Below are positions 16,648-31,900 of a stretch of DNA of 64,000 nucleotides, piece by piece. The position numbers and the translations under genes were made by a program. Position 1 is the first letter of the stretch; each line of letters begins with the position of its first letter. Below the pieces are notes generated by a model. The model ran no database searches. It saw nothing but the letters and a program-made list of their open reading frames with translations, and was not told the origin of the DNA. Source of the stretch: an uncultured Prevotella sp. (GTDB lineage: Bacteria > Bacteroidota > Bacteroidia > Bacteroidales > Bacteroidaceae); assembly GCA_900322175.1 (NCBI GenBank), contig ONYZ01000025.1, positions 1 to 64,000 on the forward strand, written 5' to 3'.

Positions 16648-19600
16648 CTAGAACAATAACTCTACACCTACTGTGAAGTTACGTGAGGCAGGATAGTCGC
16701 CTCTATCTACGCCACTCTGAATCTCGGGCTCATAGCCCTTATAATTGGTGATGGTGAAGAGGTTTGTAGCAGTTGCCGTCAGATGAATGTCTGTTTTAAT
16801 GAAACGTAGAGGAATGGTATAACCAAGCGTCAGTGTCTTGAGTTTGAAATAGTTGGAATCCTCCACAAAGCGACTGTCAATATAGCTGTACGGACGCACA
16901 TCTGTGACTGTTGGATAAGTGGTGCTGGGTTTAGCAGCTGTCCAACTGTCGAGAATCACTGATGATACGTTGTAACAGTCAGTGGGACTCTCCAGTGTAC
17001 GGCGCAATGAATTATAGATCTGTCCGTTGGCCGTACCCAGGAACTGTATAAAGGCATCGAAACGACCATATTTCAAGCTAGATGACAGTCCATAGGTTAT
17101 GTCCGGATGCGAGTGTCCTAAGATGACGCGGTCAAACTCGTTTACCTTACCGTCTCCATTGATATCACGGAACTTCTCCTGGCCTACCTTAGGACGGCTA
17201 CCATTCTGCGTAGGCAATTTAGAAATGTCTTCATCAGCCTGTACCACACCGTCGAACACAAGACCATAGAACGAACCTACAGATTCTCCTTTTCGTAGAA
17301 TGGTGTAACTGTTGACGTTCAACTCATCGTAATCGCCAAGACTAGTCACCTCGTTTTTATTGTAGCCCAGATTGCCCTGAATGTTCCAAAGGAGTCGCTT
17401 GTTTCTTATTGGTGTAAAATCGAGGGATACTTCAAAACCTCTGTTTACAACATTTCCTATGTTCTGGAGTTGAGACGAAACGCCATATTTGGCCACATCA
17501 ACAGGCACGGTGAGCAACAGGTCGAGGGTTTTCTTGTGGTAATACTCCAGCGTAACGCTTATGCGATCTTGCAAGAACGAGGCATCAAGACCTATATTAG
17601 CAGATACGGTGGTCTCCCACTTCAGATTACTATTGGCAGCATTCGACTTGGTATAGTGAACATTACCGCCAGTAGTACTGGTTGTATAGGCCGTAGAGTA
17701 TTGATAGTCGCCAATCTCCTGATTACCCAAGGTTCCTACAGAAGCACGGAGTTTCAGACTTGTCAGCCATTCCTGACTTTTAAGAAAACGTTCCTGATCA
17801 ACATTCCACGAAAGACCGAGCGAGGGGAACACACCCCAGTTGTGGTTATGCGAGAAACGTGACGAACGGTCGGCGCGAAATGTGGCCGTAGCGTTATATC
17901 TGTCAAGCAGCGTATAGTTGACACGTCCGATGAGTGAATGAAGGTTTGACGAACTCTCGCCAGAGAGCGGAGCAGCAAACAGACTACCACCCGACAAGTT
18001 ATTCTGCTTCAAGCTCTCATCAGTATACTTACTTGACGAGCCTGTCAGGAATGTACGATTGCTAGTTTGATAAGTATAGCCAATCAATGCATCGAGCTGG
18101 TGGTGCTTACCGAAATTGTGCCTATAGTTGAGTGTAAACTCCGTTTGCCAGGTCTCTAAGCGGCGCTTGGCGATGCTGCCAGTACCACCATTGGCAAGAC
18201 CCAAGGCTGTATAATGAGGTGCAAAATAGTTCTGCGTCAGATTGTCGATATCGAATCCGAAACTAGCCTTACCCGTCAGCCCTGGAATGATTTCATAATT
18301 CAGACTGGCATTACCGATGATATCGTCATCAATTGACTGGGCTACACTGTTCTCCAGATCCGACACAGGGTTCGCTGCGATGTCGCCCATAGCAAAGTAA
18401 GCATACTCATAAGGGTTGGTATAGTTGTATGAACCATCAGCTTTGTATACGGGAACTACAGGGGGCATGAGCAATGCGTAAGTAAGGGAGTTGGTGATTC
18501 CGCCCTGATAAGGCGAGGAATTGAACGATACACCTGTAGTGGTAGTAAGTCCGTCTTGCTTGTTGCGGCTCACGTTCAGCGCAGTCTCTATGGTCAGTCT
18601 GTCCGTAAGTTTACGGTCTACGTTCAGACGGAGTGCCGAACGATTGAAACCAGTGTTCAGCACAACACCCTTCTGGTCAACGATATTGGCTCCAAACAGA
18701 AATCGTGTCTTTTCGTCGCCACTGCTGATAGTCAGATTATGTGAATGACTGACTACCGAGCGTAGCACAGCATCCTGCCAGTCGGTGCCTGCACCCAGTG
18801 CCTCAATCTGGTCATCGGTATAGCCACCTTTATTATAGAAATACTGCTTCTGATAGCGAGCCCACTCTGTAGCATTCAGCACACTGAGCTTCTTCGACGG
18901 AGCGGCGTAGGTAAGCTGATAGTTATATTTTATGTTGGTTCCGTCACGCTTTGCCTTCTTCGTGGTAATGATGATGACACCATTGGCGCCACGAGAACCA
19001 TAGATGGCAGTAGCAGAAACGTCTTTTAGCACCTCTATAGACTCAATATCCTGAGGATTGATGAGACTCAACGGACTGATGCCGCCACTTATGCCTGTTC
19101 CACGTTCACCGGTATCGAGAGTACCACTCTCCTTATAATACAAGAAACCATCAATTACGTAGAGGGGATCATTGTTGGCACTGATGGAGTTGCCACCACG
19201 AATTCGTATGGAAGATCCACTGCCTGGCTGACCAGAGGTGGTAACCTGTACACCTGCCACAGAACCTGCCAAAAGAGCATCGGCCGTAGGAAGCACATTA
19301 CTATTCAACACGTCCTGGCTAACGGTAGTTACGCTACCAGTCAACTGGGTACGCTTCTGTGTGCCATAACCCACGATGACTACCTCGTCTAACTTATTGG
19401 AGTTGTCGATGAGTGCAAGATCTATAGGCTCATCGAAGTCGTATACATCAACATCCTGTGAACGATAGCCTACGTACTCTACACGCAGAGTCAGCGGGGC
19501 ATCCTTCTTGGTTCGCAACGAGAAGTTACCATCAGCGTCAGTAACCACGCCCAAGCCTTCCATTCCCGAGCTATGCTCGCCTACCCGTTGCCTTTCGCTC

Positions 19601-19734
19601 TTCACGATGACAGAGGCTCCAATGAGCGACTCACCGCTACGGGCATCGGTGATGTGACCGGTAATCAGGCCTTGCGCAACGGCCACTAAGGGCCCTATTG
19701 CAACAAGCGTTGCAACTAACAATCTCTTTACCAT
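16648..19734 (-). CDS. SusC/RagA family TonB-linked outer membrane protein
   Basis: 1028 residues: signal peptide, a carboxypeptidase-regulatory-like beta-sandwich (residues about 20-105), the SusC motif LDEVVIVGYGTQKRTQLTG, plug (residues about 115-240, with IRGGNSISANNDPLYVIDG), and a 22-strand barrel ending NFTVGVELLF. It forms the TonB-powered channel paired with the SusD gene downstream. A periplasmic binding protein precedes it by 17 bases, an unusual partner for SusC/D. The operon position right after a cysteine-rich leader ORF suggests regulated import of a sulfur compound or metal chelate. Confidence 0.93.
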   Translation of the reverse strand: MVKRLLVATLVAIGPLVAVAQGLITGHITDARSGESLIGASVIVKSERQRVGEHSSGMEGLGVVTDADGNFSLRTKKDAPLTLRVEYVGYRSQDVDVYDFDEPIDLALIDNSNKLDEVVIVGYGTQKRTQLTGSVTTVSQDVLNSNVLPTADALLAGSVAGVQVTTSGQPGSGSSIRIRGGNSISANNDPLYVIDGFLYYKESGTLDTGERGTGISGGISPLSLINPQDIESIEVLKDVSATAIYGSRGANGVIIITTKKAKRDGTNIKYNYQLTYAAPSKKLSVLNATEWARYQKQYFYNKGGYTDDQIEALGAGTDWQDAVLRSVVSHSHNLTISSGDEKTRFLFGANIVDQKGVVLNTGFNRSALRLNVDRKLTDRLTIETALNVSRNKQDGLTTTTGVSFNSSPYQGGITNSLTYALLMPPVVPVYKADGSYNYTNPYEYAYFAMGDIAANPVSDLENSVAQSIDDDIIGNASLNYEIIPGLTGKASFGFDIDNLTQNYFAPHYTALGLANGGTGSIAKRRLETWQTEFTLNYRHNFGKHHQLDALIGYTYQTSNRTFLTGSSSKYTDESLKQNNLSGGSLFAAPLSGESSSNLHSLIGRVNYTLLDRYNATATFRADRSSRFSHNHNWGVFPSLGLSWNVDQERFLKSQEWLTSLKLRASVGTLGNQEIGDYQYSTAYTTSTTGGNVHYTKSNAANSNLKWETTVSANIGLDASFLQDRISVTLEYYHKKTLDLLLTVPVDVAKYGVSSQLQNIGNVVNRGFEVSLDFTPIRNKRLLWNIQGNLGYNKNEVTSLGDYDELNVNSYTILRKGESVGSFYGLVFDGVVQADEDISKLPTQNGSRPKVGQEKFRDINGDGKVNEFDRVILGHSHPDITYGLSSSLKYGRFDAFIQFLGTANGQIYNSLRRTLESPTDCYNVSSVILDSWTAAKPSTTYPTVTDVRPYSYIDSRFVEDSNYFKLKTLTLGYTIPLRFIKTDIHLTATATNLFTITNYKGYEPEIQSGVDRGDYPASRNFTVGVELLF

Positions 19735-19751
19735 AAGTTCCTCTCTCCTTT

Positions 19752-20633
19752 TTATTTAAGATTCAACAATCCGAATTCGTGGTTATATTTTGTTCCCTGG
19801 GCAAGTACCCAATCCAAGAACTTGTTTACTTCATCGTCGGCATTATTCACACTGATGCCTACCTTCTCGATAGCCACTTCCGACACCTTACTGTTCTCGA
19901 GTGCTGTAAGCAGATCGTCGAGTGTACCGTTGTCGCTAAAGCTTTCAGCCAAGTCCTTCTTGACATCGAGCCCCACCAGCGACAGGTTGTCCTTAATGTG
20001 GCGACTCTCGAGGTCGAAGATGTTTGGCAGAGCGTTGAACGAAACACCCAGAGGATCCTTTGCAAGAGCTGTGTTCAGGAACAGGTCGTCGCCCGAGATA
20101 CGCTTGCCACGGAAACTGCTACTCTCCTCGCCGAAATTATGGGCGAACGATGAAGCTACTGATGTGGCGTTGCTGCCACTGTAAATGGTAATGGTTTCGA
20201 ATGTCTTGTTCTTTTTCACGTCCTCATCGAAATCATCGTTGAGGAAGAACAGTTGCTTTAGCTTCTTATTGTTAAGGTGCTTGCCTTCGAGCAGTCGGGC
20301 TGCCTCAGAGCTACGTGCGGTGATAGGCAGCACGGCTGTCTCTCCGAAATAAACGATCTGGCTAAAGTCTTTATCTTCGAGTACTACATTCAGGTCTGTA
20401 TTACCCTGTCCCTTTGCAATCTGGAATTCAACACCCGGCTGGGTCTTGGCATATTCCTTGATCCACTTCTCTACCAGTGGACGTGCAAAGCGTGGAGCTT
20501 TAATGGTTCTTACGGTTGTGTTGGTGGTATTGTTGGTACCGTTAACTTCGTTTACTTTTTTTCCCTCAGCCCAAACCTTGCTGTTCAGCCCGAGACTTAA
20601 AATCAATGCTATTGTAAATGCTATCTTTTTCAT
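19752..20633 (-). CDS. Periplasmic PstS-like substrate-binding protein
   Basis: 293 residues with a signal peptide (residues 1-22, ending VWAEG). The body fits the PBP_like_2/PstS-like fold: a lobe with VVYFGETAVLPITARSSEA-like features, the serine-rich ligand loop NATSVASSFAH and the hinge strand DPLGVSFNALPNIFD. Such proteins bind oxyanions such as phosphate or sulfate. No ABC permease is adjacent; instead SusC/SusD follow in the same operon. The start overlaps the end of the cysteine-run leader ORF by 68 bases, so its translation may be coupled to the leader. Confidence 0.7.
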   Translation of the reverse strand: MKKIAFTIALILSLGLNSKVWAEGKKVNEVNGTNNTTNTTVRTIKAPRFARPLVEKWIKEYAKTQPGVEFQIAKGQGNTDLNVVLEDKDFSQIVYFGETAVLPITARSSEAARLLEGKHLNNKKLKQLFFLNDDFDEDVKKNKTFETITIYSGSNATSVASSFAHNFGEESSSFRGKRISGDDLFLNTALAKDPLGVSFNALPNIFDLESRHIKDNLSLVGLDVKKDLAESFSDNGTLDDLLTALENSKVSEVAIEKVGISVNNADDEVNKFLDWVLAQGTKYNHEFGLLNLK

Positions 20634-20952: not shown

Positions 20953-21010
20953 ATCCAGAAACAGTACTTTCAAGGAGTAACAATAATCAATAATTAATAT
21001 ACAAAACGCA

Positions 21011-21388
21011 ATGAAAAAGGTTATCAACACAAATCAGGCACCAGCTGCCATCGGGCCATATAGTCAGGCCATTAAAGTAGGAAACCTAGTTTACACATCA
21101 GGACAGATTCCTATCGATCCTGCTACAGGCAACTTTGTAGAAGGTGGCATCAAGGAACAGACCCGTCAATCGCTGACAAATATTAAGGCGATTCTTGAGG
21201 AAACAGGTTTATCAATGAACAATGTAATAAAGACTACTGTTTTCTTAGCCGATATGAACGACTTTGCGGATATGAACTCTGTGTATGCCGAGTTTTTCTC
21301 TGAGCCATATCCTACACGTTCGGCCGTTGCAGTAAAGACACTGCCCAAAGGAGCACTAGTAGAGATTGAGGTAGTTGCCGAAGAATAA
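21011..21388 (+). CDS. ridA: RidA family enamine/imine deaminase
   Basis: 125 residues, full length for the YjgF/YER057c/UK114 family. Motifs: [23 protein letters not shown], a conserved Thr-Thr-Val-Phe-Leu ([13 protein letters not shown]) and the C-terminal [21 protein letters not shown] with the catalytic Arg. RidA hydrolyses reactive 2-aminoacrylate and other enamines released by PLP enzymes acting on serine, threonine or cysteine. It is convergent with the cysteine-desulfurase/MetY operon, whose PLP enzymes could produce such intermediates; the functional link is an inference. Cytosolic. Confidence 0.95.
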
Positions 21389-21396
21389 AAAACTCT

Positions 21397-21547
21397 CATC
21401 TCTCACATCATCATGACTCACATACAAAACCTTTTTTGATTCAACATTAATTTTGGGGTGAATTAATTCAAATCATCAAATGAATTAATTCAAACGATGT
21501 TTTGAATTAATTGACGGTTTTTGACAAGCATTTGTGTGTGAGAGATG
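21397..21547. repeat. CATCTCTCACA-bounded inverted-repeat element
   Basis: CATCTCTCACA (21397-21407) and TGTGAGAGATG (21537-21547) form an 11-bp perfect inverted repeat around the palindrome array at 21438-21525. The CATCTCTCA terminus is shared with the 88-bp inverted repeat at 46659-47018. It lies between the convergent ridA and JAMM genes and may form a large 3' hairpin. Confidence 0.6.
21438..21525. repeat. 22-bp-phased GAATTAATTC palindrome array
   Basis: Units start at 21438 (GATTCAAC), 21460 and 21482 (both GAATTAATTCAAA) and 21504 (GAATTAATTGAC), an exact 22-bp period. The cores GAATTAATTC are perfect 10-bp palindromes. Confidence 0.8.
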
Positions 21548-21563
21548 AAGTTAGAGATGAACC

Positions 21564-21962
21564 TTATAAATGTACTTCCTTATCCACCACTTCACCATTC
21601 AATATCTTGAACGAGTTCAGGTGCACGCCTTCGTATAATGACAGGATGGCGTAGCGGATATTCGGGTCGTTGGCCAAACGAAGATCTTCCTGCGAAGGAC
21701 GCGAAGGCGAAGCAGGATGACTATGCCAATTGGCGAGAATCTTCAAACCATTCTGACGAGCGTACTTCAGGGCAGCAAACTGATCCTTGGGAGCAAAAGA
21801 AAAATGCTCTGGCGAATGGTCAACATTCTCCATCCAATAGTTCTCAGTAACCACGTCACCCTCATCAGAGGTTACGCCCAGCAGGTATCCGCACGTCTCG
21901 TTGGGTGCGTCCTGCCGGGCCTGGTTAATCAATTCATCAATAATCTCTTGTGGAATTCTCAT
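21564..21962 (-). CDS. JAMM/M67 family metallopeptidase (carrier-processing type)
   Basis: 132 residues. The JAMM zinc motif is complete: Glu in NETCGYLLG, then NWHSHPASPSRPSQEDLRLA (HxH...S..D). Small bacterial JAMM enzymes next to ThiS-like carriers (for example QbsD in Pseudomonas and HcyD in Wolinella) trim residues after the C-terminal Gly-Gly of the carrier or release a product from it. Here the carrier three genes upstream ends GGGSL, so removal of Ser-Leu is the expected activity. It is the last gene of the operon, three bases after the E1-like gene. Cytosolic. Confidence 0.9.
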   Translation of the reverse strand: MRIPQEIIDELINQARQDAPNETCGYLLGVTSDEGDVVTENYWMENVDHSPEHFSFAPKDQFAALKYARQNGLKILANWHSHPASPSRPSQEDLRLANDPNIRYAILSLYEGVHLNSFKILNGEVVDKEVHL

Positions 21963-21965
21963 TGT

Positions 21966-22772
21966 TCAATGTTTTAAATCACATGCCGCCTGTTCGTAAT
22001 CTATCAGATGATCGATAGTTGGATTTGTACCGCAGATAACGCAAGAGTCGCGATGTTTCACTGTTACAGTGCGGAACTGCATGGTCTTTGCATCGAATGT
22101 AAGCAGACGATTGGTAAGTAATTCGCCAACACCCGTAAAATACTTAAGTGTCTCAGCAGCCTGAATGGTTCCAAGCATACCTGCGATAGCTCCCAATACT
22201 CCTGCCTGCGAGCATGTAGGTACTGCACCTACTGGAGGTGGCTCCTTGAACATACAGCGATAGCAAGCTGTGCCAGGCAGATGTGTAAATGTCTGGCCGT
22301 TAAAGCGTAATATACCACCATGCGAGAAAGGCTTACCGGCCATCACACAGGCATCGTTGATAAGGAACTTCACTGGGAAGTTGTCTGTACCATCAACTAT
22401 GAAATCGTACTCTTTAATAATATCAAGTGCATTTGCCGAGTTAAGAAACTCATAGTAGGTATCTACCTTTACATCAGGATTGATAGCTTCAATCTTTTCC
22501 TTAGCACTCTGCACTTTAGGCACATTCACGTCTTTGGTGAAATGTATTATCTGGCGCTGCAGATTACTAAGATCTACCACATCGGCATCGATAATACCAA
22601 TCCTACCAATACCTGCAGCAGCGAGGTAGAGCGAGACAGGAGCACCAAGTCCACCTGCACCTACCACAAGTACCTTGGCATTCATTATCTTCTCCTGTCC
22701 CTCTACACCTACATCCTGCAAAAGTATGTGGCGAGAATAACGCTGGATTTGTTCTTCAGTGAAATCTCTCAT
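21966..22772 (-). CDS. HesA/MoeB/ThiF family E1-like adenylyltransferase
   Basis: 268 residues. E1-like features: RYSRHILLQDVGVEGQEK, the nucleotide-binding loop VVGAGGLGAPVSLYLAAAG, DADVVDLSNLQRQIIH, and two CxxC pairs (CYRCMF, CVICG) that would hold a structural zinc. Enzymes of this class adenylate the C-terminal glycine of a ThiS/MoaD-like protein so that sulfur can be added as a thiocarboxylate. The gene overlaps the carrier gene by four bases (ATGA), so they are translated together. It is probably the HcyF/ThiF equivalent of this operon rather than molybdopterin MoeB, because no moa/moe genes are present. Confidence 0.92.
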   Translation of the reverse strand: MRDFTEEQIQRYSRHILLQDVGVEGQEKIMNAKVLVVGAGGLGAPVSLYLAAAGIGRIGIIDADVVDLSNLQRQIIHFTKDVNVPKVQSAKEKIEAINPDVKVDTYYEFLNSANALDIIKEYDFIVDGTDNFPVKFLINDACVMAGKPFSHGGILRFNGQTFTHLPGTACYRCMFKEPPPVGAVPTCSQAGVLGAIAGMLGTIQAAETLKYFTGVGELLTNRLLTFDAKTMQFRTVTVKHRDSCVICGTNPTIDHLIDYEQAACDLKH

Positions 22773-22981
22773 AAAGAGCCTCCTCCCATAAAGTATAGAA
22801 AATCAACTACGTCACCTTCCTTTATCTGCAAGCCGTCCCATTCGGTACGGTCCACGAAGTCATCGTTCACCTGTACACTTACCATATCGGGCTGCAATAC
22901 GTTGTTCAACTTTATCAACTCTGTGAGACTGAGGGGTAACTGTACTTCCTGTGCCTCTCCGTTTACTAATATCTTTGCCAT
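22769..22981 (-). CDS. ThiS/MoaD-like sulfur carrier protein ending GGGSL
   Basis: 70 residues with a beta-grasp pattern: AKILVNGEAQEV, SLTELIKLNNV, VSVQVNDDFVDRTEWDGLQI, KEGDVVDFLYFMGGGSL. Normal ThiS ends at Gly-Gly; here Ser-Leu follow, so the protein must be trimmed before it can be adenylated. The adjacent JAMM peptidase and E1 enzyme supply those steps. Thiamine synthesis is unlikely because no other thi genes are present. With MetY and the cysteine desulfurase in the operon, delivery of sulfide for homocysteine formation, as in the HcyS system of Wolinella, is the best reading. It starts two bases after the desulfurase stop. Confidence 0.9.
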   Translation of the reverse strand: MAKILVNGEAQEVQLPLSLTELIKLNNVLQPDMVSVQVNDDFVDRTEWDGLQIKEGDVVDFLYFMGGGSL

Positions 22982-22983
22982 TT

Positions 22984-24510
22984 TTATCTGCCTATTATTT
23001 TCTTAATTGCAATTACTAACTTGTCTACATCCTCGCGTGTATTATAAAGCGCAAAGGTTGGACGAACGCTCATTTCATATCCAAGAGCACGCAGAGCTGG
23101 TTGAGCACAATGGTGGCCTGCTCTAACTGCTATGCCTTCCTTGTCGAGTAGTGTTCCTACCTCGGGCACAGGAATACCATCTAGGACAAAGCTAACAACC
23201 GAAACACGATTTTTGGGATTAGCAAGAAGCGTAAGCCCAGGAATCAGCGCAAGTTGTTCGCGTGCATACTCTGTAAGTTGGTGCTCGTGGTGCTCGATAT
23301 TACGCAAACCGATCTGACTTACATAATCGAGTGCCGCCCCCAATCCGATAGCATCGGCAACATTTGGAGTTCCAGCCTCGAAACGTGCTGGTGGTTGGTT
23401 GTATTCTGTACGCTCGATGGTAACATCCTTAATCATATTACCACCACCCTGCCATGGCTGCATCTTGTCGAGCAATTCCTTACGACCATATACCACACCT
23501 ATTCCATTAGGACCATATATCTTATGACCACTAAATACAAAGAAATCGGCTCCTAACTGTTGTACATCCACTGGTGTGTGCGCAATCGACTGAGCTCCAT
23601 CTATAAGCACAGGAATATTGTGTGCATGGGCGATTTCGATTATGCGACGAACATCATTGATAGTACCATAGGTATTATTAACATGTCCTACCGAAACAAA
23701 CCGAGTACGCGGTGTGATGATTCGCTCGAACTCAGAGAGTATCAGGTCACCATTCTTATCTGTAGGAATTGCACGCAGAGTGGCTCCTTTCTCCTGGCAA
23801 ACACGCTGCCAGGGCACAATGTTAGCGTGATGGTCAAGCTCGCTGACGATAACATCATCACCTGGTGTGAGGAACTGGCGTCCATAGGTTTGCGCCACAA
23901 GATTAATACCCTCGGTGGTTCCACGCACAAAGATTATCTCCTCGCTAGTGGCGGCGTTGATGAATCGCTGCACTTTTTCGCGAGCCTCCTCGTATGCATC
24001 GGTAGCGCGGGCAGCCAACGTATGTGCACCACGATGAATATTGGAATTGTATGTACGATAATACTCCGATATCTTATCAATAACCTGATTAGGTTTCTGT
24101 GTTGTAGCTCCATTGTCCAGCCAAACCAGATCATGACCATTCACCTTCTGCTGCAACACAGGGAAGTCGCGCTTTATCTGCTCTGAATTCAGAGTATCAG
24201 CCTCCTCATAGTGCAGGTCGCGCAGCTTCTGTGTCTCAGGTATGCCGATACCGAAGCCATCATCCTTGGGTAGCGACGAGGTACTAGCATCTTCATCGCC
24301 GATATATGGCAGTTCGCCATACCCACTGCCACCAGCCAGCAGCGCATTGAAGCCTGTCGCGAGCTCTTCGAGGTTCAGGGTTTCGTCAGGCAAAACGCTC
24401 TGACGAACCTCCTGTAACTCCTCAGGACAATACTTCTGTGCTACCTGCCTCAGCAGTTCAAACCCAGGGTCCTGTATTCCGTATCCGTTTATATTCTGAA
24501 TATCTATCAT
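22984..24510 (-). CDS. Cysteine desulfurase with N-terminal extension (probable encapsulin cargo)
   Basis: 508 residues against about 405 for ordinary SufS. Residues from about 107 form a complete class V PLP enzyme: LDNGATTQKP, FVRGTTEGINLVAQTYG, SELDHHANIVPWQ, the PLP-lysine in FSGHKIYGPNGIG, and the persulfide cysteine in RAGHHCAQPALRALG. The first 105 residues are low-complexity and Gly/Ser/Asp-rich, like the disordered targeting region of cysteine desulfurases loaded into family 2 encapsulins. Its ATG overlaps the shell gene stop by one base (TAATG), so cargo and shell are translationally coupled. It would release sulfane sulfur from cysteine inside the compartment. Confidence 0.9.
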   Translation of the reverse strand: MIDIQNINGYGIQDPGFELLRQVAQKYCPEELQEVRQSVLPDETLNLEELATGFNALLAGGSGYGELPYIGDEDASTSSLPKDDGFGIGIPETQKLRDLHYEEADTLNSEQIKRDFPVLQQKVNGHDLVWLDNGATTQKPNQVIDKISEYYRTYNSNIHRGAHTLAARATDAYEEAREKVQRFINAATSEEIIFVRGTTEGINLVAQTYGRQFLTPGDDVIVSELDHHANIVPWQRVCQEKGATLRAIPTDKNGDLILSEFERIITPRTRFVSVGHVNNTYGTINDVRRIIEIAHAHNIPVLIDGAQSIAHTPVDVQQLGADFFVFSGHKIYGPNGIGVVYGRKELLDKMQPWQGGGNMIKDVTIERTEYNQPPARFEAGTPNVADAIGLGAALDYVSQIGLRNIEHHEHQLTEYAREQLALIPGLTLLANPKNRVSVVSFVLDGIPVPEVGTLLDKEGIAVRAGHHCAQPALRALGYEMSVRPTFALYNTREDVDKLVIAIKKIIGR

Positions 24511-25949
24511 TATTTCTCAACCTTATTCCTATGCTGATAATCGTGATAATAACCTACTTCCACGTTTTCAAGCACGGCGATAGCATCGCCTGTAAGCGCT
24601 GCCAACGAGAAGTACTTAGTAAGCAGATAAGATGCTACACCAAACTTGTCGAGTCCCATCAGTCGGGCACTCAGTGATGGTGCAATCTCACCAGGAATAC
24701 CGCTCTGATGCAAACCTACGACACCCTGGTTTTTCTCGCCTGCACGTACCAGAATTATTTTTGTAGTGCCAACGCCACGACCTGTGAGATACTGCCCTTC
24801 TACTTCAACCTTATCCGATGGAATCAGAGGAACACCACGCCACAATATCACTCTGGTACCAAACAGGTCGGTAGTTACAGGAGGTACGCCACGCCAAGTA
24901 CATTCGCGCTCAAAAGCAGCAATAGCTCGTGGATGAGCGATAAAGAATGAAGGCTCCTTCCATACCAGACTAAGCAATTCATCAAGATCATCGGGTGTGG
25001 GCGATCCATAACGGGTAGTAATACGATAGGCTGGATTCGCTGCAGCCAACAGTCCGAAATTCTTATTATTGATCAGTTCCCACTCCTGACGTTCCTTGAT
25101 ACTCTCGATGCTGAGGCGCAACTGCTCTTCGAGCTGGTTGTAGGGATTATTATAGAGATCACTTACACGAGTATGTACACGTACTACAGTCTGCAATGTA
25201 TTAAGCGAGTACTCAGTAGGATTCTCCTCGTAATCAATATAAGTCTCAGGGATAATATTGTCTTCCTCGTGACCGCTCACCAGGTCGATATGCTTCTCGC
25301 CATTGTCGTTTACGGAGGCTTTTAGTCGAAGTTGCTTGTCAACAGCCTTGGCAAAGGTGTCACGGAAATCGGGTACCTCCTTGATAAACTTAATCAGCTC
25401 CTGAAGTTTTAGGCCAAGGAATACTGTGGGGGTGATGGCACGAACAGATACTGTCGATTCCTGTTCATCAAGCAGATCGGCCTCACCGAAATACTCACCA
25501 TCACCCAATAGGGCAATCCGCAACTCTTCGCCATGCGGTCCCTTGCTGATAACCTCAGCCTGTCCGCTGGCTACGATGAAGAAACGCTGCTTGTCCTTGC
25601 CTTCCTCAACAAACAATTTGTCGACATCAATCTCCTTGGCTTCGAACGAGCTAGCCAATCGATTCAATATCTCATCATCGAACTCTGAGAACAACGGTAT
25701 TGCCTTCAGATCCTTAGCAGCAAATGTTGGAACTCCGTTAAGGTACTGAATAGGCAGACGATCGTTCTTGCGAAGTTCTACCTTAGTACGATTAACACGG
25801 AATGTGCCGCCCGACACCTGTACCCACGGCAAGAGCTTCAACAGAAGTCTTGGAGTGATTGAGCCCATCTGAGGGGCTGTCTTAGTTGTGGTCGCCAGTC
25901 TTCTGGCGGTAGCAGTGGTCACACTGCGCTGAAGATTTGATTCTGCCAT
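24510..25949 (-). CDS. Family 2 encapsulin shell protein with cNMP-binding domain (2B type)
   Basis: 479 residues. The N-terminal arm (residues 1-75, including TPRLLLKLLPWVQVSGGTFRV) and the region from about 215 to the end (SLNTLQTVVRVHTRVSDLYN, NKNFGLLAAANPAYRI, ECTWRGVPPVTTDLFGTRVI, GVVGLHQSG) match the HK97-fold shell of family 2 encapsulins (SrpI-like). Between them, at about 85-190, is a Crp-type cyclic-nucleotide-binding domain with GEYFGEADLLDE, which defines subtype 2B. It forms a protein nanocompartment. The next gene encodes an extended cysteine desulfurase, the known cargo type. Ligand and pore control by this domain are unknown. Confidence 0.9.
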   Translation of the reverse strand: MAESNLQRSVTTATARRLATTTKTAPQMGSITPRLLLKLLPWVQVSGGTFRVNRTKVELRKNDRLPIQYLNGVPTFAAKDLKAIPLFSEFDDEILNRLASSFEAKEIDVDKLFVEEGKDKQRFFIVASGQAEVISKGPHGEELRIALLGDGEYFGEADLLDEQESTVSVRAITPTVFLGLKLQELIKFIKEVPDFRDTFAKAVDKQLRLKASVNDNGEKHIDLVSGHEEDNIIPETYIDYEENPTEYSLNTLQTVVRVHTRVSDLYNNPYNQLEEQLRLSIESIKERQEWELINNKNFGLLAAANPAYRITTRYGSPTPDDLDELLSLVWKEPSFFIAHPRAIAAFERECTWRGVPPVTTDLFGTRVILWRGVPLIPSDKVEVEGQYLTGRGVGTTKIILVRAGEKNQGVVGLHQSGIPGEIAPSLSARLMGLDKFGVASYLLTKYFSLAALTGDAIAVLENVEVGYYHDYQHRNKVEK

Positions 25950-25957
25950 AATTTTAA

Positions 25958-26182
25958 TTATTTTTTAATTATTACTTTGTGAACTTTTCCTTCTACATGT
26001 TCTACAGAGAGTACGTTGTAACCTTGCTCTTTTGCATTGCGAGGCACATTATCGAGAGGCTCACCCTCGCTCAGCAGCACCTCAAGCGTATCGCCATCAT
26101 TAAGCTTCGACAGCTCAATCTTGGTCTTAACAAATGTCATAGGACAATGTTCCTTTGTGATGTCTAATGTTTTTGTTGCCAT
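25958..26182 (-). CDS. TusA/SirA-like sulfur-relay protein
   Basis: 74 residues with the TusA two-layer fold pattern: LDITKEHCPMTFVKTKIELS, then DGDTLEVLLSEGEPLDNVP and a final beta strand VHKVIIKK. The persulfide-accepting cysteine is present, but the usual Cys-Pro-x-Pro is Cys-Pro-Met-Thr. TusA proteins take sulfur from a cysteine desulfurase and pass it to DsrE-type or other acceptors. It sits between the encapsulin and DsrE-like genes, 8 and 17 bases from them. Because it is small and cytosolic, it could collect sulfur leaving the compartment. Confidence 0.9.
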   Translation of the reverse strand: MATKTLDITKEHCPMTFVKTKIELSKLNDGDTLEVLLSEGEPLDNVPRNAKEQGYNVLSVEHVEGKVHKVIIKK

Positions 26183-26199
26183 AACTTTCTGCTTTTGTA

Positions 26200-26679
26200 T
26201 TAAATGAATAATGTTTGTCCGCCTTCCGATAGGTTCAGGAATGATGCCACACCCAACACATCCTTCACTTCTGGTATAAAGTCTTCCTTATTTAAGCCCA
26301 ATACGTGCATAGCCATCTCGCAAGCGTATAGATTGATACCCAGGACTTTTGCAGCCTCAACCAATTCTTCAAGTGTTGCCACATTATTCTTACGCATCAG
26401 ATAGCGGAATATCTTTGGTCCCGCTCCCAGGAAGTTAAACCTGCTTGTTGGGGTATCTTTAAGTCCGCCCATCATAAATCCAAAGATTTTTGTAAGCCAG
26501 TTGCCACCAGTAAAGCTACGTCCCTGCTTCTTTTTAATAGCATCAAGCCCCCAGAAGGTGAAGAAGATATTCACCTCATAGCCCACTGCAGCAGCTCCCG
26601 TTCCTAATGTAAACACAGCTGTCAGCTTGTCGAAATCGCCACTAAAGGCGATGATACTCAGTTTCTTTTGTTTTGCCAT
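26200..26679 (-). CDS. DsrE/DsrF-like (DsrE2-type) sulfur-transfer protein
   Basis: 159 residues with a DsrE-like Rossmann-type layout: KLSIIAFSGDFDKLTAVFTL, VGYEVNIFFTFWGLDAIKKK, then LGINLYACEMAMHVLGL holding the conserved sulfur-carrying cysteine. The hydrophobic FGFMMGG segment is typical of DsrE2-type proteins. Such proteins exchange persulfide with TusA. Its gene starts seven bases after the MetY-like gene. Together with TusA it makes a two-step relay between desulfurase and end acceptor. Confidence 0.88.
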   Translation of the reverse strand: MAKQKKLSIIAFSGDFDKLTAVFTLGTGAAAVGYEVNIFFTFWGLDAIKKKQGRSFTGGNWLTKIFGFMMGGLKDTPTSRFNFLGAGPKIFRYLMRKNNVATLEELVEAAKVLGINLYACEMAMHVLGLNKEDFIPEVKDVLGVASFLNLSEGGQTLFI

Positions 26680-26686
26680 ATTTTCT

Positions 26687-27862
26687 TCATTTTATTATTG
26701 CCTGCTCTATGTCTGCCAGTATATCCTCAGGAGCTTCAAGACCTACGGATAAGCGAATTGTAGTCTGTCGTACATCCATCTGTTCCAACTGACGATCCGC
26801 AAACAATCCAAAGATAGTAGATGCCGGATGAATAGCCAGCGTGCGACTATCGAAGAGGTTTGTTGCACGATGCACTAGTTTCAGTCGGTTCAGAAAGCTA
26901 AAGCATGCTTCTTTTGATTCCAAGTCGATAGTTAGCATTGCACCAGCAGTTTTTCCAAATTGTTGCTGAGCAAGTGCATGATAAGGGTTATCGGCCAAAC
27001 CAATATAATTTACGTTTCTTATACCGTCAACATATTTCAGTTCCTTGGCTATTTTAAGCGTATTAGCTGCCTGACGCTGATAGCGAACATCCAGTGTTTC
27101 CAAGCCCAGTGTCTGCATATAGGCAACTTGTGGAGTCATATAAGCTCCAAGATTCACCAGCAAATCGTACTTTATACGCTGATTTATCTGCGGGAAAGTG
27201 CCATAGTCTATTATCAGACCACCTAATGATGTGCCGCCACCAGATATATACTTTGTGCTGGAAACCACTTCAATATCCACACCAAGCTCCTTCATGGATG
27301 TTTCAGTAAAGGGGATGACGGTGGAGTCGACTATCACTGGAACGTTCTTCCTGTGAGCTATCTCTGCTATGCCCTTCAAGTCGGCCACCTCCAACTGGGG
27401 ATTAGTTACGATCTCCAAAAATACACAACAGGTCTGCTCATCAATAGCTGCCTCCACCGCCTCCAGGTTGGTCAAATCTCTCAATTTAGGTTTTACACCG
27501 AAGCGCAGCAATGTGTTGCTTATCAGAGCCAGCGAATTTCCAAAAAGATGTCGTGATGTCACAATATTCTTTCCCTGTGCACCTACAGCCATCAGAGCAT
27601 TGCTTATCGCCGCCATACCAGAGTTGTAAGCAGATACATGCTCAGCATTCGTCAAGGCTTTAACACGTTGCTCAAAGTTGGTTACGGTGGGGTTGTACAT
27701 TCTACCGTAATCAGGAGCCTTTATGCGATTGCAAAAAGCATCAGACATCACCTGTGCATCGTCAAACTCATACGACACATTACTATATATAGGTACAGCC
27801 AGCGATCCGTAAACGTCTGGACGTACATAAGGCGTACTAATTGCTATTGTTTGTTTCTTCAT
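26687..27862 (-). CDS. MetY-like O-acetylhomoserine sulfhydrylase / Cys-Met metabolism PLP enzyme
   Basis: 391 residues of the Cys/Met metabolism PLP family. Visible motifs: YGRMYNPTVTNFEQRVKALT, SGMAAISNALMAVGAQG, the cofactor-binding VIVDSTVIPFT, the PLP-lysine in VVSSTKYISGGG and C-terminal RLSVGLEAPEDILADIEQAI. The family includes MetY, cystathionine gamma-synthase/lyase and methionine gamma-lyase. The operon's thiocarboxylate carrier, E1 and JAMM match the Wolinella arrangement in which MetY makes homocysteine from O-acetylhomoserine and protein-bound sulfide, so MetY is favoured. A gamma-lyase role cannot be excluded. Confidence 0.85.
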   Translation of the reverse strand: MKKQTIAISTPYVRPDVYGSLAVPIYSNVSYEFDDAQVMSDAFCNRIKAPDYGRMYNPTVTNFEQRVKALTNAEHVSAYNSGMAAISNALMAVGAQGKNIVTSRHLFGNSLALISNTLLRFGVKPKLRDLTNLEAVEAAIDEQTCCVFLEIVTNPQLEVADLKGIAEIAHRKNVPVIVDSTVIPFTETSMKELGVDIEVVSSTKYISGGGTSLGGLIIDYGTFPQINQRIKYDLLVNLGAYMTPQVAYMQTLGLETLDVRYQRQAANTLKIAKELKYVDGIRNVNYIGLADNPYHALAQQQFGKTAGAMLTIDLESKEACFSFLNRLKLVHRATNLFDSRTLAIHPASTIFGLFADRQLEQMDVRQTTIRLSVGLEAPEDILADIEQAIIK

Positions 27863-27869
27863 TATTACG

Positions 27870-28508
27870 TTAAATATAAAATTCTGATGAATCTATCAAT
27901 CCCGCCCGCAAAGCGTATTTCACAACCTCGTGAGCTGTATTTATTTTCAGTTTACGAAAGATATTCTTGCGATGGGTAGTAATAGTATGAACGCTAGAAA
28001 AGCGCTCTTCGGCTATCTCCTTAGTGGTCTTACCCTGGGCAATAGCCTTAACTATCTCAATCTCCGTTTCTGTCAATATGCTTGGACGTTCCTCCTCTTC
28101 CTTCTGCGAAATAATGGTTTCAAGCGCCCTCTGACTGAAGAAACGCTCATGACGAGATGTGGCTTGCAGAGCCTCACGAACACTACTCAGAGGCTCATCC
28201 TTAAATACAATACTGAATTGATGCGACGAATAAACCACCCGACGCAAAAAAGCCGGTGTCAGATCATCGCTTATAAGCACCCATTGTGCCAATGCAAAAC
28301 GTTCGCTCACTATCAGCAGTTGGTCCACATCAGTAAAGTCGAACAACGTATAGTCAAGCAGCACTATCGCATTCTCGTGCTCCTTCAGCAGTTCTACAAG
28401 TCCTGCTTTATTACTGGTCTTGTATACCGTACCTTCTTTCTGCCTGATCAAACTTTCTAGGGCAAATCTAGTCAGTTCCCGATTATCTGCAAGTATATAT
28501 TTCGCCAT
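27870..28508 (-). CDS. LuxR-type response regulator of the sulfur/encapsulin operon
   Basis: 212 residues. The N-terminal half is receiver-like (IVLLDYTLFDF with an Asp at about position 52, later SIVFKDEP with Lys) but lacks the clear acidic pair of true response regulators, so it may sense a ligand or be a degenerate receiver. The C-terminal half is a GerE/LuxR helix-turn-helix (ILTETEIEIVKAIAQGKTTK to HRKNIFRKLKI). It is the first gene of the operon, seven bases before metY-like, and likely controls the operon itself. No histidine kinase is adjacent. Confidence 0.85.
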   Translation of the reverse strand: MAKYILADNRELTRFALESLIRQKEGTVYKTSNKAGLVELLKEHENAIVLLDYTLFDFTDVDQLLIVSERFALAQWVLISDDLTPAFLRRVVYSSHQFSIVFKDEPLSSVREALQATSRHERFFSQRALETIISQKEEEERPSILTETEIEIVKAIAQGKTTKEIAEERFSSVHTITTHRKNIFRKLKINTAHEVVKYALRAGLIDSSEFYI

Positions 28509-28525
28509 AACAATATGATTTTGGG

Positions 28526-28535
28526 TGCAAAGGTA
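28526..28535 (-). promoter_or_regulatory. -7 promoter box of the encapsulin/sulfur operon
   Basis: Reverse complement reads TACCTTTGCA. It lies only 18 bases before the regulator ATG, so the leader is about ten nucleotides. It would drive all nine genes down to 21564, since no other clear box is seen in the short gaps. Confidence 0.75.
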
Positions 28536-28686
28536 CTATGCTTAGAAAATATATCCAAATTTTTGCTTAAATTCAGAAGATACTCCTAAATATCAGATTA
28601 TTACTATAAACATTTTCTTTTATTCACCAATAACAAGCCTGTTTTTAGAATAATATTCCGAATCTACACAAAAAAACGCAAATATC

Positions 28687-28869
28687 CCCTGCAGTTCAGC
28701 TGACTACAGGGGATAAACTCTTACGGACGATTTTATGAATAACCGCTTATCCTACTTCTTAACCTGTTGAGTTGCACCAGTGGTTGCATCTGTGTTCTTT
28801 GCGGGTTTTACCTCGCTGGCATCGTACTTTATCTTCTTGAAGCCCTTGATGATATTCTCAACGTTGAAT
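28687..28869. repeat. 183-bp direct repeat, copy A
   Basis: Identical to 34086-34268 except for three substitutions (offset 5399). It contains a terminator-like hairpin (CCCCTG...CAGGGG, about 28686-28712) and the last 39 codons of an HMA-like gene. The two copies bracket a 5.2-kb segment with the secreted hydrolase gene. Confidence 0.95.
28752..28869 (-). pseudogene. 3' fragment of an HMA-like gene (copy A)
   Basis: Encodes only FNVENIIKGFKKIKYDASEV and the KPAKNTDATTGATQQVKK tail, the same residues as the end of the gene at 34151-34405. The upstream part is replaced at 28870 by the promoter of the 28906 gene, so the fragment has no start or promoter of its own. Confidence 0.85.
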
Positions 28870-28874
28870 TGTCG

Positions 28875-28884
28875 TACCTTTGCA
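28875..28884 (+). promoter_or_regulatory. -7 promoter box of the 28906 gene
   Basis: TACCTTTGCA begins five bases after the end of direct-repeat copy A and 31 bases before the ATG. Confidence 0.75.
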
Positions 28885-28905
28885 GAGGTGTAAATAACTA
28901 GAATT

Positions 28906-31900
28906 ATGAAGTCAAAAACATTATTTGTGTTGATGTCCATGCTGCTGACGGTCCTTTCGGGGTACGGTCAGGAGTCTGGCATCGCCTCATTGCAACCTGT
29001 GAATGTCGCCGATGTGAAGATTACGGCCGTCAACGATGCCTACTTCACCGATGAAGGCATCGTCGTGGTCAGTCCCGACGAAGCCCCGGAGCCCGCACTG
29101 GCCCGCCGGCGTGCCAGCGGGCTGCAAGATGAGGGCAGCGCATACTTCGTCGACGCCAAACTCTACTCCTATACCTATCCTTCGGTGGATGCCGACGGCA
29201 ATAAGGTGACCCTGTCGTCGCTGATGGCCGTACCAAAGGGCGTTCTGGCCTTCCCCAATAACCTGGTCATCGGCTGCCACGTCACCATCACCAGTAACTA
29301 CGAGTGCCCCACGGAATACAACAAGAGTGGCGGTTGGCTTTCGTGGATGACCGACGTAGGCATGCTGATTGACTACACGCGCAACGATGGCGTGCGCAAA
29401 CCCTGCTGTTTGGTTATCATGCCCGACTACGAGGGCTACGGCGTGAGCAAGGATCGTGCCCACCCCTACCTCTACCAGGAACTGACCGCCCGTCAAGTGG
29501 TGGATGGCGTGCGCGCCGGACTGGAACTCTTTAAGCAGAATTCCTCCTTCAACGAATTTGATGACAATTGGAAGAGCGTATGCATAGGTTACTCGCAGGG
29601 CGGCTCCGTGTCATTGGCCACCCACCGCTTCATCGAGGAGAACGGCTTGGCTGACGAGCTGCATTTCGCTGGTTCGGTATGCGGTGACGGACCCTACGAC
29701 CCTGTGGCACACCTGGGCTACTATATGAACGACAATGGCGAGACCTTCGACGGTGGGGAAAATCGCACAAAGCATGAGACGGCCACCGTGTCGATGCCCA
29801 TCGTCATGCCGCTCATCCTGAAGGGCATGTGCGACCGCAACCCCTTCATGCGCCAGCACACGGTGAGAGAATACCTGTCGGAGAAGTTCCTGCGCACCGG
29901 TGTCATCGACTTCATCAACGCCAAAAGCCAGGAGGACAAGAGCAGGCAGTATTCCACCGACGACATCAACGAGGCGTTCCGCCAAATGCGTAAGTATGGT
30001 AAGACATATACGTATTACGACGAAAGAAATCTCCCAGGATTGACACAGGGTTCATATGATGCCGCCCAGATGAAGGAGATGCTCTATAAGGATGATGGCG
30101 ACAATGTACACGGCAAGCTGGAGCAGATGATGACAACGGATGCCTTCGCATATTTCAATGGATCACACTCATCAGTACCGTCAGATCGGGGCGTGATGAA
30201 AGACCTGCACCGCGCACTGGCCAGCAATGCGAGGGTATCGGGATGGACACCCAGCCACCGCATCGCTTTCTATCACTCCAGCTACGACACGGTGGTGCCT
30301 TACGAAAACCTGCTGTCGTTCATCCGTCATCAGGACGGCCTGAACTACTACTTCCATAACCGCCAGCGCTCACAGAACGCTAACGTCAATCCGACGCACA
30401 TGGTGGAGAAAGAAGAAAATGCCGATGTCTATATCTACGACGATGACACGAAGAAAGACCATGTGGATGCCGGTAAGGACTTCTACTTCTTTGGTTCGCC
30501 GTCGCCCGACTACAAACTGATGAAGTGGGTGGTGGAAGGCAAGGAGGCTGGTTCTCTCAGTCCCGCCAGTTCTGACGACAAACTGGTCACCATCACCTTG
30601 CAGAACGGCGACAAGACGGTCAGCGCCGAGGCACTGATAAGCGGTAGCTACAGCCTCTTACTGGGCAACGGACAGAATGCCTGCATATCGCAATACACCG
30701 AGGGTGCCATCACCATTCCCGGCAAGGTGACTATCGGCGGAACTGAATACGACGTAACGGTGAACCAGTTGGCCTTCCGCCTGTGCAACAAGTTGACGGA
30801 GGTGACCATCAGCGAGGGAATCACCTCGATTGGCGACTTTGCCTTCGTGGGCTGTTCGTCGCTGCAGAAGGTGTCGCTGCCCTCTACCTTGCACCGCATC
30901 GGCGACGGAGCCTTTGTGAATCTGCCTAACCTGAAGGAGATGAAGTGTGCTGCCGCAGAACCACCAGTCTGGGAATACAACGACCTGTTTGCCTACGAGG
31001 GCACCGCCAGTGCTACGGCGAAACTCGCTACCCAGCGCACGCTCAACGTGCCTCGCGCCAGTGCCAACAAATACAGAAATTCGAAATTCAACGGCGAAGT
31101 GGGGTGGGCCGATGCCTTCGGACTCATCTGCGAGGCCACCATGCCTACACAGTCCATGAGTATTTCGACGTTCAAAGACTTAGAGGACTTAGCCACCAGG
31201 GTTAACGGCGGCGATAACATGGGCAACTATACCATCCGCCTGACTCAAGACCTCATTCTGGAGGGTGAAAAACGTGACAACTGGTATGCCTTGATACCCA
31301 TCGGCACCGCCGACCATCCCTTCAGCGGCGTGTTCGACGGACAGGGTCATACCATCAAGAACGTGAGGACCCATCATGATGATGATAATAATGTGGGCCT
31401 CTTCGGCTATACCGACGGCGCCGTCATCAGCAACCTCACCCTGCAGAACATCAGCCTGAAGGGTGAGAGCAACGTCGGCGTGGTGGTGGGCAATGCCAAC
31501 TACAGCATGATTCACGATGTGCTGGTCTATAAAGCCGTGCCAACAAATGGCGACGAGTATTACTGTGCCGAGGCCACTGCGGTCAATGCCGGCGGACTGG
31601 TGGGCAGGGCCAACAACACCACCATCATCGACAGCTACTTCTATGGCAAGGTGAAGGGTGTTATGGCTGCCGGCGGCATCGTGGGCGAAAGTGCTACCGC
31701 CAGCGTCAGCGACTGTGCTGCAGGCTATTCCGTAGAATCCGGCGACATCGCCGGCGGCATCGTGGGCAAGGCCGGCACGGCTACGAAAGTGGCCCGATGC
31801 TATTCACGCAGCACGCTCTCGGCAACCACCGTCGCTGGCATTATCGGACAGCATCAGGGCGACAGCGAGTCAAGTGTCAGCAATTGTGCCTACTTCGGTG

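Follow-up and report, generated by a model that had tools for sequence, protein, structure and literature searches.

A Prevotella operon joining a family 2B encapsulin and its predicted desulfurase cargo to a thiocarboxylate-type sulfur carrier module

The window analyzed here, a 64,000-nucleotide stretch from an uncultured Prevotella sp. (contig ONYZ01000025.1 of assembly GCA_900322175.1), carries at positions 21564..28508 of its minus strand an operon that combines an encapsulin shell gene and a cysteine desulfurase gene with the components of a ubiquitin-like sulfur carrier system. All nine open reading frames (ORFs) were confirmed at their coordinates and on this strand, and family profile searches of the window proteins named the parts. 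In operon order, the intergenic gaps are 7, 7, 17, 8, −1, 2, −4, and 3 bases, so the nine genes with gaps of at most 17 bases and two overlaps, and the families that an earlier note on this DNA had assigned to them, all stand. That note had called the shell "fused" into a sulfur operon, which is apt for a single operon but not for the proteins, none of which is a fusion.

The first gene (27870..28508) encodes a 212-amino-acid (aa) regulator of the LuxR/NarL type with a GerE C-terminal DNA-binding domain and a receiver-like N-terminal part. It is followed by genes for a 391-aa MetY-like pyridoxal phosphate (PLP) enzyme (26687..27862; Cys_Met_Meta_PP), whose best solved relative is 3ri6, the O-acetylhomoserine sulfhydrylase of Wolinella; a 159-aa DsrE2-like sulfur-trafficking protein (26200..26679; DrsE_2) with a conserved cysteine in a YAC motif; and a 74-aa TusA-like sulfur carrier (25958..26182; TusA family) with a CPMT motif. 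The shell and desulfurase genes come next, and the operon ends with genes for a 70-aa ThiS-like carrier (22769..22981; ThiS), a 268-aa E1-like adenylating enzyme of the ThiF/MoeB/UbaA type (21966..22772; ThiF) that has no rhodanese domain, and a 132-aa JAMM metalloprotease (21564..21962; Prok-JAB) with a WHSHPASPSRPSQED motif.

The 479-aa shell protein (24510..25949) is SrpI-like and contains an inserted cyclic nucleoside monophosphate (cNMP)-binding domain. It scores 562 bits against NF041163 (encap_f2b; cut-off, 400), and its residues 5 to 466 align to 9bje (E = 1e-115). Together, 9bje and 9bix represent the two family 2B shell proteins of Streptomyces lydicus, which have the HK97 fold (PMC12407261; papers are cited here by such numbers and for excerpts of their text). 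This match along nearly the whole length bears out the encapsulin assignment, for which the earlier note had made the HK97 fold decisive. The family 2B scores and the gene context also rule out a phage capsid. The inserted domain (PF00027 at residues 113 to 190, 54 bits) displays the motif FGEADLL...SVRAIT, which we take to be the phosphate-binding-type motif of cNMP domains.

The desulfurase gene (22984..24510) shares 1 base with the shell gene and encodes a 508-aa SufS-type enzyme (Aminotran_5/SufS), the predicted cargo. This protein scores 562 bits against TIGR01979 (SufS; cut-off, 475) and 721 bits against NF041166 (encapsulin cargo), where it stays below the cut-off of 800 because the long N-terminal part of the 2A type is missing, and only profile positions 218 to 623 are aligned. 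At its N terminus it has an extension of 105 residues (versus 225 to 281 in three desulfurases of the class-wide control loci described below) that is missing from the other SufS of the same genome and contains the motif FG[IVL][GD][ILV]PE. Among the ORFs of 136 loci, an FGxGxPE-type motif is confined to those of the desulfurase, 110 of 126 having it. The active-site motif RAGHHC is present in 119 of these 126; the other seven are four ORFs that reach the end of the stretch and three short or split ones. We infer that the desulfurase is packaged as shell cargo through its N-terminal extension.

The remaining components are similarly well preserved. The JAMM motif HSHP...S..RPS.ED is intact in all 107 ORFs, the E1 motif PTCSQAG in 107 of 109, the YAC motif of DsrE in 119 of 120, and the CPMT motif of TusA in 121 of 124 (121 of the 122 that are shorter than 130 residues). 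The window carrier ends in MGGGSL, a pro-form with residues after the GG, and at least one residue follows the glycines in 108 of 109 carriers, so that trimming would be needed, which suits maturation by the JAMM protease. A role in thiamine or molybdopterin synthesis is not favored, because the carrier gene is accompanied by those for JAMM, TusA, and, in most cases, MetY; ThiG and MoaE were not searched for. Sulfur transfer from DsrE to TusA has a precedent in Metallosphaera (PMC4175335), and TusA of Escherichia coli receives sulfur from the desulfurase IscS (PMC11302665).

The distribution of these genes was surveyed in 399 genomes of the family, counting shells that score over the cut-off and strong JAMM matches. 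Weak shell matches below the cut-off in G124 (family) and G831 (order) and a weak JAMM match in G351 (E = 9e-4) were set aside before counting (G and L numbers are our labels for genomes and loci). The shell is found in 46 genomes and JAMM in 49; 44 genomes have both, 2 have only the shell, and 5 have only JAMM (G028, G039, G217, G236, and G360). The Fisher test gives p = 2e-50, which overstates the significance because the genomes are related to one another. At the genus level, JAMM is found in 13 of the 30 genera surveyed, and these 13 include every one of the 10 genera that have the shell (p = 1e-5). The two shell-only genomes, G209 and G230, are 78 and 86% complete, and the G230 contig is 4 kb long. 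Thus, the linkage of shell and desulfurase to carrier, E1, and JAMM that the earlier note had expected in relatives is indeed observed.

The gene neighborhoods show the same association. Besides the window, 45 family shell loci were fetched as stretches of up to 20 kb. All 45 contain DsrE and TusA, 44 contain the desulfurase (the exception is G230, where the contig ends), 42 contain a MetY of the window type, 39 have ThiS, E1, and JAMM in the same stretch, and 24 have LuxR. Among 80 named loci, which are the best matches to a Prevotella-type query and many of which are cut by contig ends, the desulfurase is found in 80, TusA in 75, DsrE in 74, ThiS in 62, E1 in 61, and JAMM in 58. The gene order varies; recurring arrangements include that of the window, one with a divergent carrier module, and LuxR-MetY-CysK-ThiS-E1-DsrE-TusA-JAMM-shell-desulfurase. 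In G199 and G778, 13 to 20 kb separate the shell from the carrier module (13 kb in G199), and in G023, G049, G066, and G171 the two modules are both present but on separate contigs. The conservation of this gene set is far beyond chance. The shell is distributed patchily in g1, the genus of the window: 3 genomes have it and at least 20 do not, which suggests that the entire set was lost or transferred.

In an order-wide sample of 198 genomes, a shell over the cut-off is found in 4, the window's own and three from outside the family, and all 4 have JAMM; 3 more have JAMM without the shell. In 325 genomes sampled class-wide, PF19307 matches are found in 5 besides the window's own (3 of 2A size, 1 of 2B size, and 1 weak); JAMM was matched in none of the five. 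The 15 class-wide JAMM matches other than that of the window are all weak (<55 bits) and probably represent other JAMM families. Loci from four of the five genomes with PF19307 matches, their shells being of the 2A or a divergent 2B type, served as controls; one lies on a contig of only 4.9 kb. Shell and desulfurase are present in all four, whereas TusA, DsrE, ThiS, E1, JAMM, and MetY are found near the shell in none, and one has a weak LuxR-type match 9 kb away. The carrier tie is therefore a feature of Bacteroidales and not general to desulfurase encapsulins.

Genomes that have the carrier without the shell suggest what the shell block contributes. In G236 and G028, the ThiS-E1-JAMM set adjoins a gene whose 779- to 780-residue product combines sulfite reductase domains with TusA at the C terminus; a uroporphyrinogen methyltransferase-type gene is found nearby in G236, and CysH, CysN, and CysD in G028. 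In G360, the fusion and the carrier are on different contigs. A TusA-bearing alternative donor is thus found in 3 of the 5 shell-less carrier genomes, adjacent to the carrier in 2. In a survey of 80 genomes, counting fusions at 500 bits or more, the fusion is found in 10 of 52 genomes with JAMM and in none of 28 without it (p = 0.012). This set of 28 is small; it includes 2 genomes with the shell and 12 from the genus of the window. The presence of the fusion beside shell-less carriers suggests that the carrier module is a constant receiver for which TusA-bearing donors are exchanged, and that the encapsulin-desulfurase-TusA-DsrE block is one of two such donors to a thiocarboxylate carrier. 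This picture agrees with the statement, in the excerpted text of PMC1779556, that carrier operons of this kind have a rhodanese-less E1 and always contain a SirA (TusA-family) protein. Sulfite reductase-TusA fusions beside the carrier module or its E1/JAMM genes were observed in L190 (6904-9240), L191 (13170-15509), and L230 (4060-6474). A different arrangement is seen in L193 of G039, which has genes for the carrier, E1, JAMM, CysK, and a serine acetyltransferase-like protein but no shell or desulfurase; TusA and DsrE of G039 are fragments as called, resembling the loss of a donor block.

On balance, we regard as probable a system in which a shell, its predicted desulfurase cargo, and a carrier with E1 and JAMM act together, cysteine sulfur passing via DsrE and TusA to the carrier and then to MetY for homocysteine synthesis. 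The claim that the shell-desulfurase and carrier/E1/JAMM halves form one system, also made in the earlier note, is well supported, because the two are tightly tied in relatives, even in the few genomes where the modules lie apart. MetY as the acceptor is less certain. In the proposed mechanism, the desulfurase would be packed in the shell via its extension, and sulfur would exit the shell either as a small species or bound to protein, to be taken up by DsrE and TusA. JAMM would trim the carrier tail to expose the GG, E1 would adenylate the carrier, and TusA-borne sulfur would form the thiocarboxylate. MetY (CysK in many relatives) would then apply the thiocarboxylate to O-acylhomoserine (or O-acetylserine), and JAMM would release the product. 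On this view, the shell block and the sulfite reductase-TusA fusion would be interchangeable donor modules. In Prevotella-type gut and rumen bacteria, cysteine sulfur would thus likely be relayed between proteins until it reaches a methionine precursor, rather than being released. The data show the gene set, its conservation and phyletic tie, and the intact active-site motifs, from which the relay, the encapsulation, any storage, and the nature of the product are inferences. A bolder version, which we consider unlikely, pictures a protein organelle in which cysteine sulfur is deposited and from which it is released solely to the carrier: a cyclic nucleotide sensed by the shell would gate its release, DsrE and TusA would hand it to the ThiS-type carrier for the synthesis of homocysteine and cysteine without free sulfide, and the organelle would replace the sulfite reductase-TusA donor of relatives.

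Several observations weigh against the proposed relay. The extension motif is not found in TusA or DsrE in any of the 136 loci, and their co-packing in the shell was rejected on this ground; they are probably outside, which makes it doubtful that either touches the desulfurase directly. The fusion is also present in 7 of 49 shell genomes (G023, G049, G183, G262, G274, G294, and G778, as opposed to the shell-less G028, G236, and G360), so the two donors are not mutually exclusive. In G039 and G217 (where JAMM is in pieces on two contigs), the carrier is present and neither shell nor fusion was found. In G066, shell and carrier modules are each near contig ends and hence are possibly closer than they appear. 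The shell-carrier tie is confined to Bacteroidales in the sampled genomes. Two of the four control loci have a cysteine synthase beside the shell (CysM, 479 bits, and CysK, 404 bits, both over the cut-off), and the link of the shell to cysteine synthase is therefore wider than its tie to the carrier. Finally, AlphaFold models of the shell are of low confidence, with mean predicted local distance difference test (pLDDT) values of 44 and 51.5 and most of the HK97 part below 50.

The acceptor raises further difficulties. The closest solved structure for the window MetY is 3ri6 (311 bits; next, 229), as it is for the type B MetY of relatives (349 versus 251 bits). This is the Wolinella enzyme (PMC11568248), which draws sulfur from a protein thiocarboxylate (PMC6271081). 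The window's genome, G000, encodes elsewhere a canonical O-acetylhomoserine sulfhydrylase (923 bits to that of L038, which scores 639 bits on TIGR01326; cut-off, 495). It also has a protein of the HTS family, presumably a homoserine acyltransferase, so that the substrate would be available and the operon MetY is not the sole enzyme of its kind. Of four carrier-negative genomes inspected, G005, G056, and G092 encode a 3ri6-type MetY directly followed by the C-S lyase PatB (459 to 468 bits on TIGR04350; cut-off, 340), whereas in G033 no 3ri6-type MetY is found among the PF01053 matches; only the G056 enzyme was compared with solved structures, the others being placed by the tree. A second LuxR-MetY pair of G000 itself (L226 on contig 14, 162-3153) is likewise followed by PatB and not by shell or carrier genes. 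In the MetY tree, carrier-linked and PatB-linked enzymes are intermixed. Resemblance to 3ri6 is thus no proof of thiocarboxylate use and was abandoned as such. PatB is also found in 9 of the 45 family shell stretches, and CysK, an alternative acceptor, in 31. While 3ri6 remains the nearest relative, the MetY-PatB pairs and the frequent CysK leave the earlier note's choice of MetY as acceptor unsettled.

These observations invite the alternative that MetY is an enzyme of the cystathionine gamma-synthase type that uses cysteine, the true acceptor of the carrier being CysK or an unseen protein or tRNA, with no homocysteine made from thiocarboxylate. PatB right after MetY in all three carrier-negative genomes that have the pair, and after the second copy in G000, fits such an enzyme, and MetY in these settings may use cysteine or sulfide. 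But in most shell loci the gene after MetY is that of DsrE or CysK, or the desulfurase precedes MetY, with PatB next in only one case, and the closest solved relative of MetY uses a thiocarboxylate; we find this alternative doubtful. One reading would have homocysteine made in both settings, by MetY and PatB via cystathionine and by MetY, carrier, and JAMM via thiocarboxylate. The high frequency of CysK bears on the fate of the sulfur as well. Without sulfur storage, a path from cysteine back to cysteine via CysK would be a futile loop, which counts against a simple relay; with CysK in most relatives, cysteine is possibly also a product, which hints at storage. The shell might accordingly be a sulfur store, in which the desulfurase turns surplus cysteine into persulfide or elemental sulfur that is kept inside and later withdrawn by DsrE/TusA and the carrier for CysK or MetY, the two steps being separated in time. 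Cysteine that is spent and remade would fit the 31 of 45 stretches with CysK, the two controls with a cysteine synthase, and the serine acetyltransferase-like gene in 17 of the 136 loci (the one scored reached 162 bits on cysE, under the cut-off of 211). Polysulfide storage is one of two fates proposed in the excerpted PMC8049743, and PMC12407261, citing Benisch 2024, describes desulfurase encapsulins as "involved in sulfur storage." The sequence itself gives no sign of storage, however, and the family profile search found neither CysK nor serine acetyltransferase in the window operon. We see storage as rather unlikely.

Alternatively, the locus may unite two pathways in one regulon, both answering to sulfur supply: the desulfurase with TusA and DsrE would serve iron-sulfur clusters or tRNA thiolation, and ThiS-E1-JAMM-MetY would use free sulfide. 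The modules do lie apart in some genomes, and both carrier-only genomes and shell-only class loci exist. Yet a shared regulon alone would not predict that the shell comes with the carrier module in 44 of 46 family genomes and 4 of 4 order-wide, nor that another TusA-bearing donor is found in 3 of 5 shell-less carrier genomes. We therefore judge it distinctly improbable, below each of the other alternatives, and prefer a single system.

Each component belongs to a known family. Excerpts of PMC8346489 count desulfurase operons with encapsulins of family 2A (1,281) and of family 2B (199). The window shell shares its fold family and the inserted cNMP domain (2B) with the Synechococcus SrpI/CyD-type family 2 encapsulins, and a SufS-type desulfurase with an unannotated N-terminal extension beside the shell gene is common to both (PMC8346489). 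Instead of the accessory rhodanese and serine acetyltransferase described there, the window has DsrE, TusA, ThiS, E1, JAMM, and MetY (PMC8346489). The window-type extension is shorter and carries a motif of its own. Thiocarboxylate-dependent methionine synthesis in Wolinella succinogenes, as far as excerpted sources describe it, shares with the window operon the carrier, E1, JAMM, and the nearest type of MetY; the window combines a carrier of the GG-plus-tail form with E1, JAMM, and a 3ri6-type MetY. The Wolinella carrier, E1, and JAMM are presumably those named HcyS, HcyF, and HcyD. In contrast to that system, the window has no sulfite reductase or sulfate assimilation genes and contains the encapsulin-desulfurase block with TusA and DsrE instead. 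Mycobacterial CysO-CysM-Mec makes cysteine with a carrier, a JAMM protease, and a PLP enzyme. This logic is shared by the window operon, and CysK is found in many of its relatives; the window itself, however, has MetY and no cysteine synthase, and its E1 lacks a rhodanese domain. Row 4d of PMC1779556 is comparable to the mycobacterial system. Class 4e of the same paper has a ThiS/MoaD-like carrier, JAB, rhodanese-less E1, SirA (TusA family), and O-acetylhomoserine sulfhydrylase, but it has genes for sulfate/sulfite transport and reduction, of which the window operon has none (Iyer 2006; PMC1779556). In the excerpted text, the class 4e row names no shell, and "cysteine desulf" does not occur. 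Among the papers listed, none was found that unites an encapsulin with ThiS/E1/JAMM/MetY, and none in which "encapsulin" and "thiocarboxylate" occur together, in a search that covered subscription journals thinly; the supplementary figures of PMC8346489 may draw the operon. In the literature searched, the combination is thus without description, as the earlier note had supposed.

According to the excerpts of PMC8049743, it is an open question what becomes of the sulfur that an encapsulated cysteine desulfurase releases. The operon names likely partners for this sulfur and, being present in records of the named strains Prevotella aff. ruminicola Tc2-24 and Xylanibacter ruminicola D31d, makes the question directly testable. 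If the proposed relay is true, it would link a nanocompartment to amino acid synthesis via ubiquitin-like carrier chemistry. A host animal is named in the titles of 17 of the 80 named loci, in every case a ruminant. For ruminants, methionine of microbial origin is important.

A candidate promoter, TTTG-N20-TAnnTTTG, which we take to follow the Bacteroidetes-type consensus, is found just upstream of the LuxR gene (28528..28559, minus strand). It is the sole minus-strand match within 21000-29500, and the operon interior contains no other; the window as a whole has 10 such sites (0.49 expected). In relatives, a site within 300 bases upstream is found for 18 of 58 LuxR genes, 35 of 127 MetY-type genes, 0 of 119 DsrE genes, and 1 of 101 ThiS genes, compared with 29 of 2,500 random stretches. 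At the other end, a gene for a RidA-family enamine/imine deaminase (21011-21388, plus strand) converges with the operon, and repeated palindromic GAATTAATTC stretches were noticed by eye in the interval (~21455-21520). RidA-family enzymes handle 2-aminoacrylate released by PLP enzymes. RidA was dropped as a member of the system, being nearby in 15 of the 80 named and 1 of the 45 family loci. Beyond it, the minus strand (16648-20633) encodes a protein that by eye resembles TonB-dependent receptors and a periplasmic-binding-like protein without a Pfam match; relatives of this pair are found near the operon in 51 and 45 of the 136 loci, respectively, and they possibly import a sulfur source.

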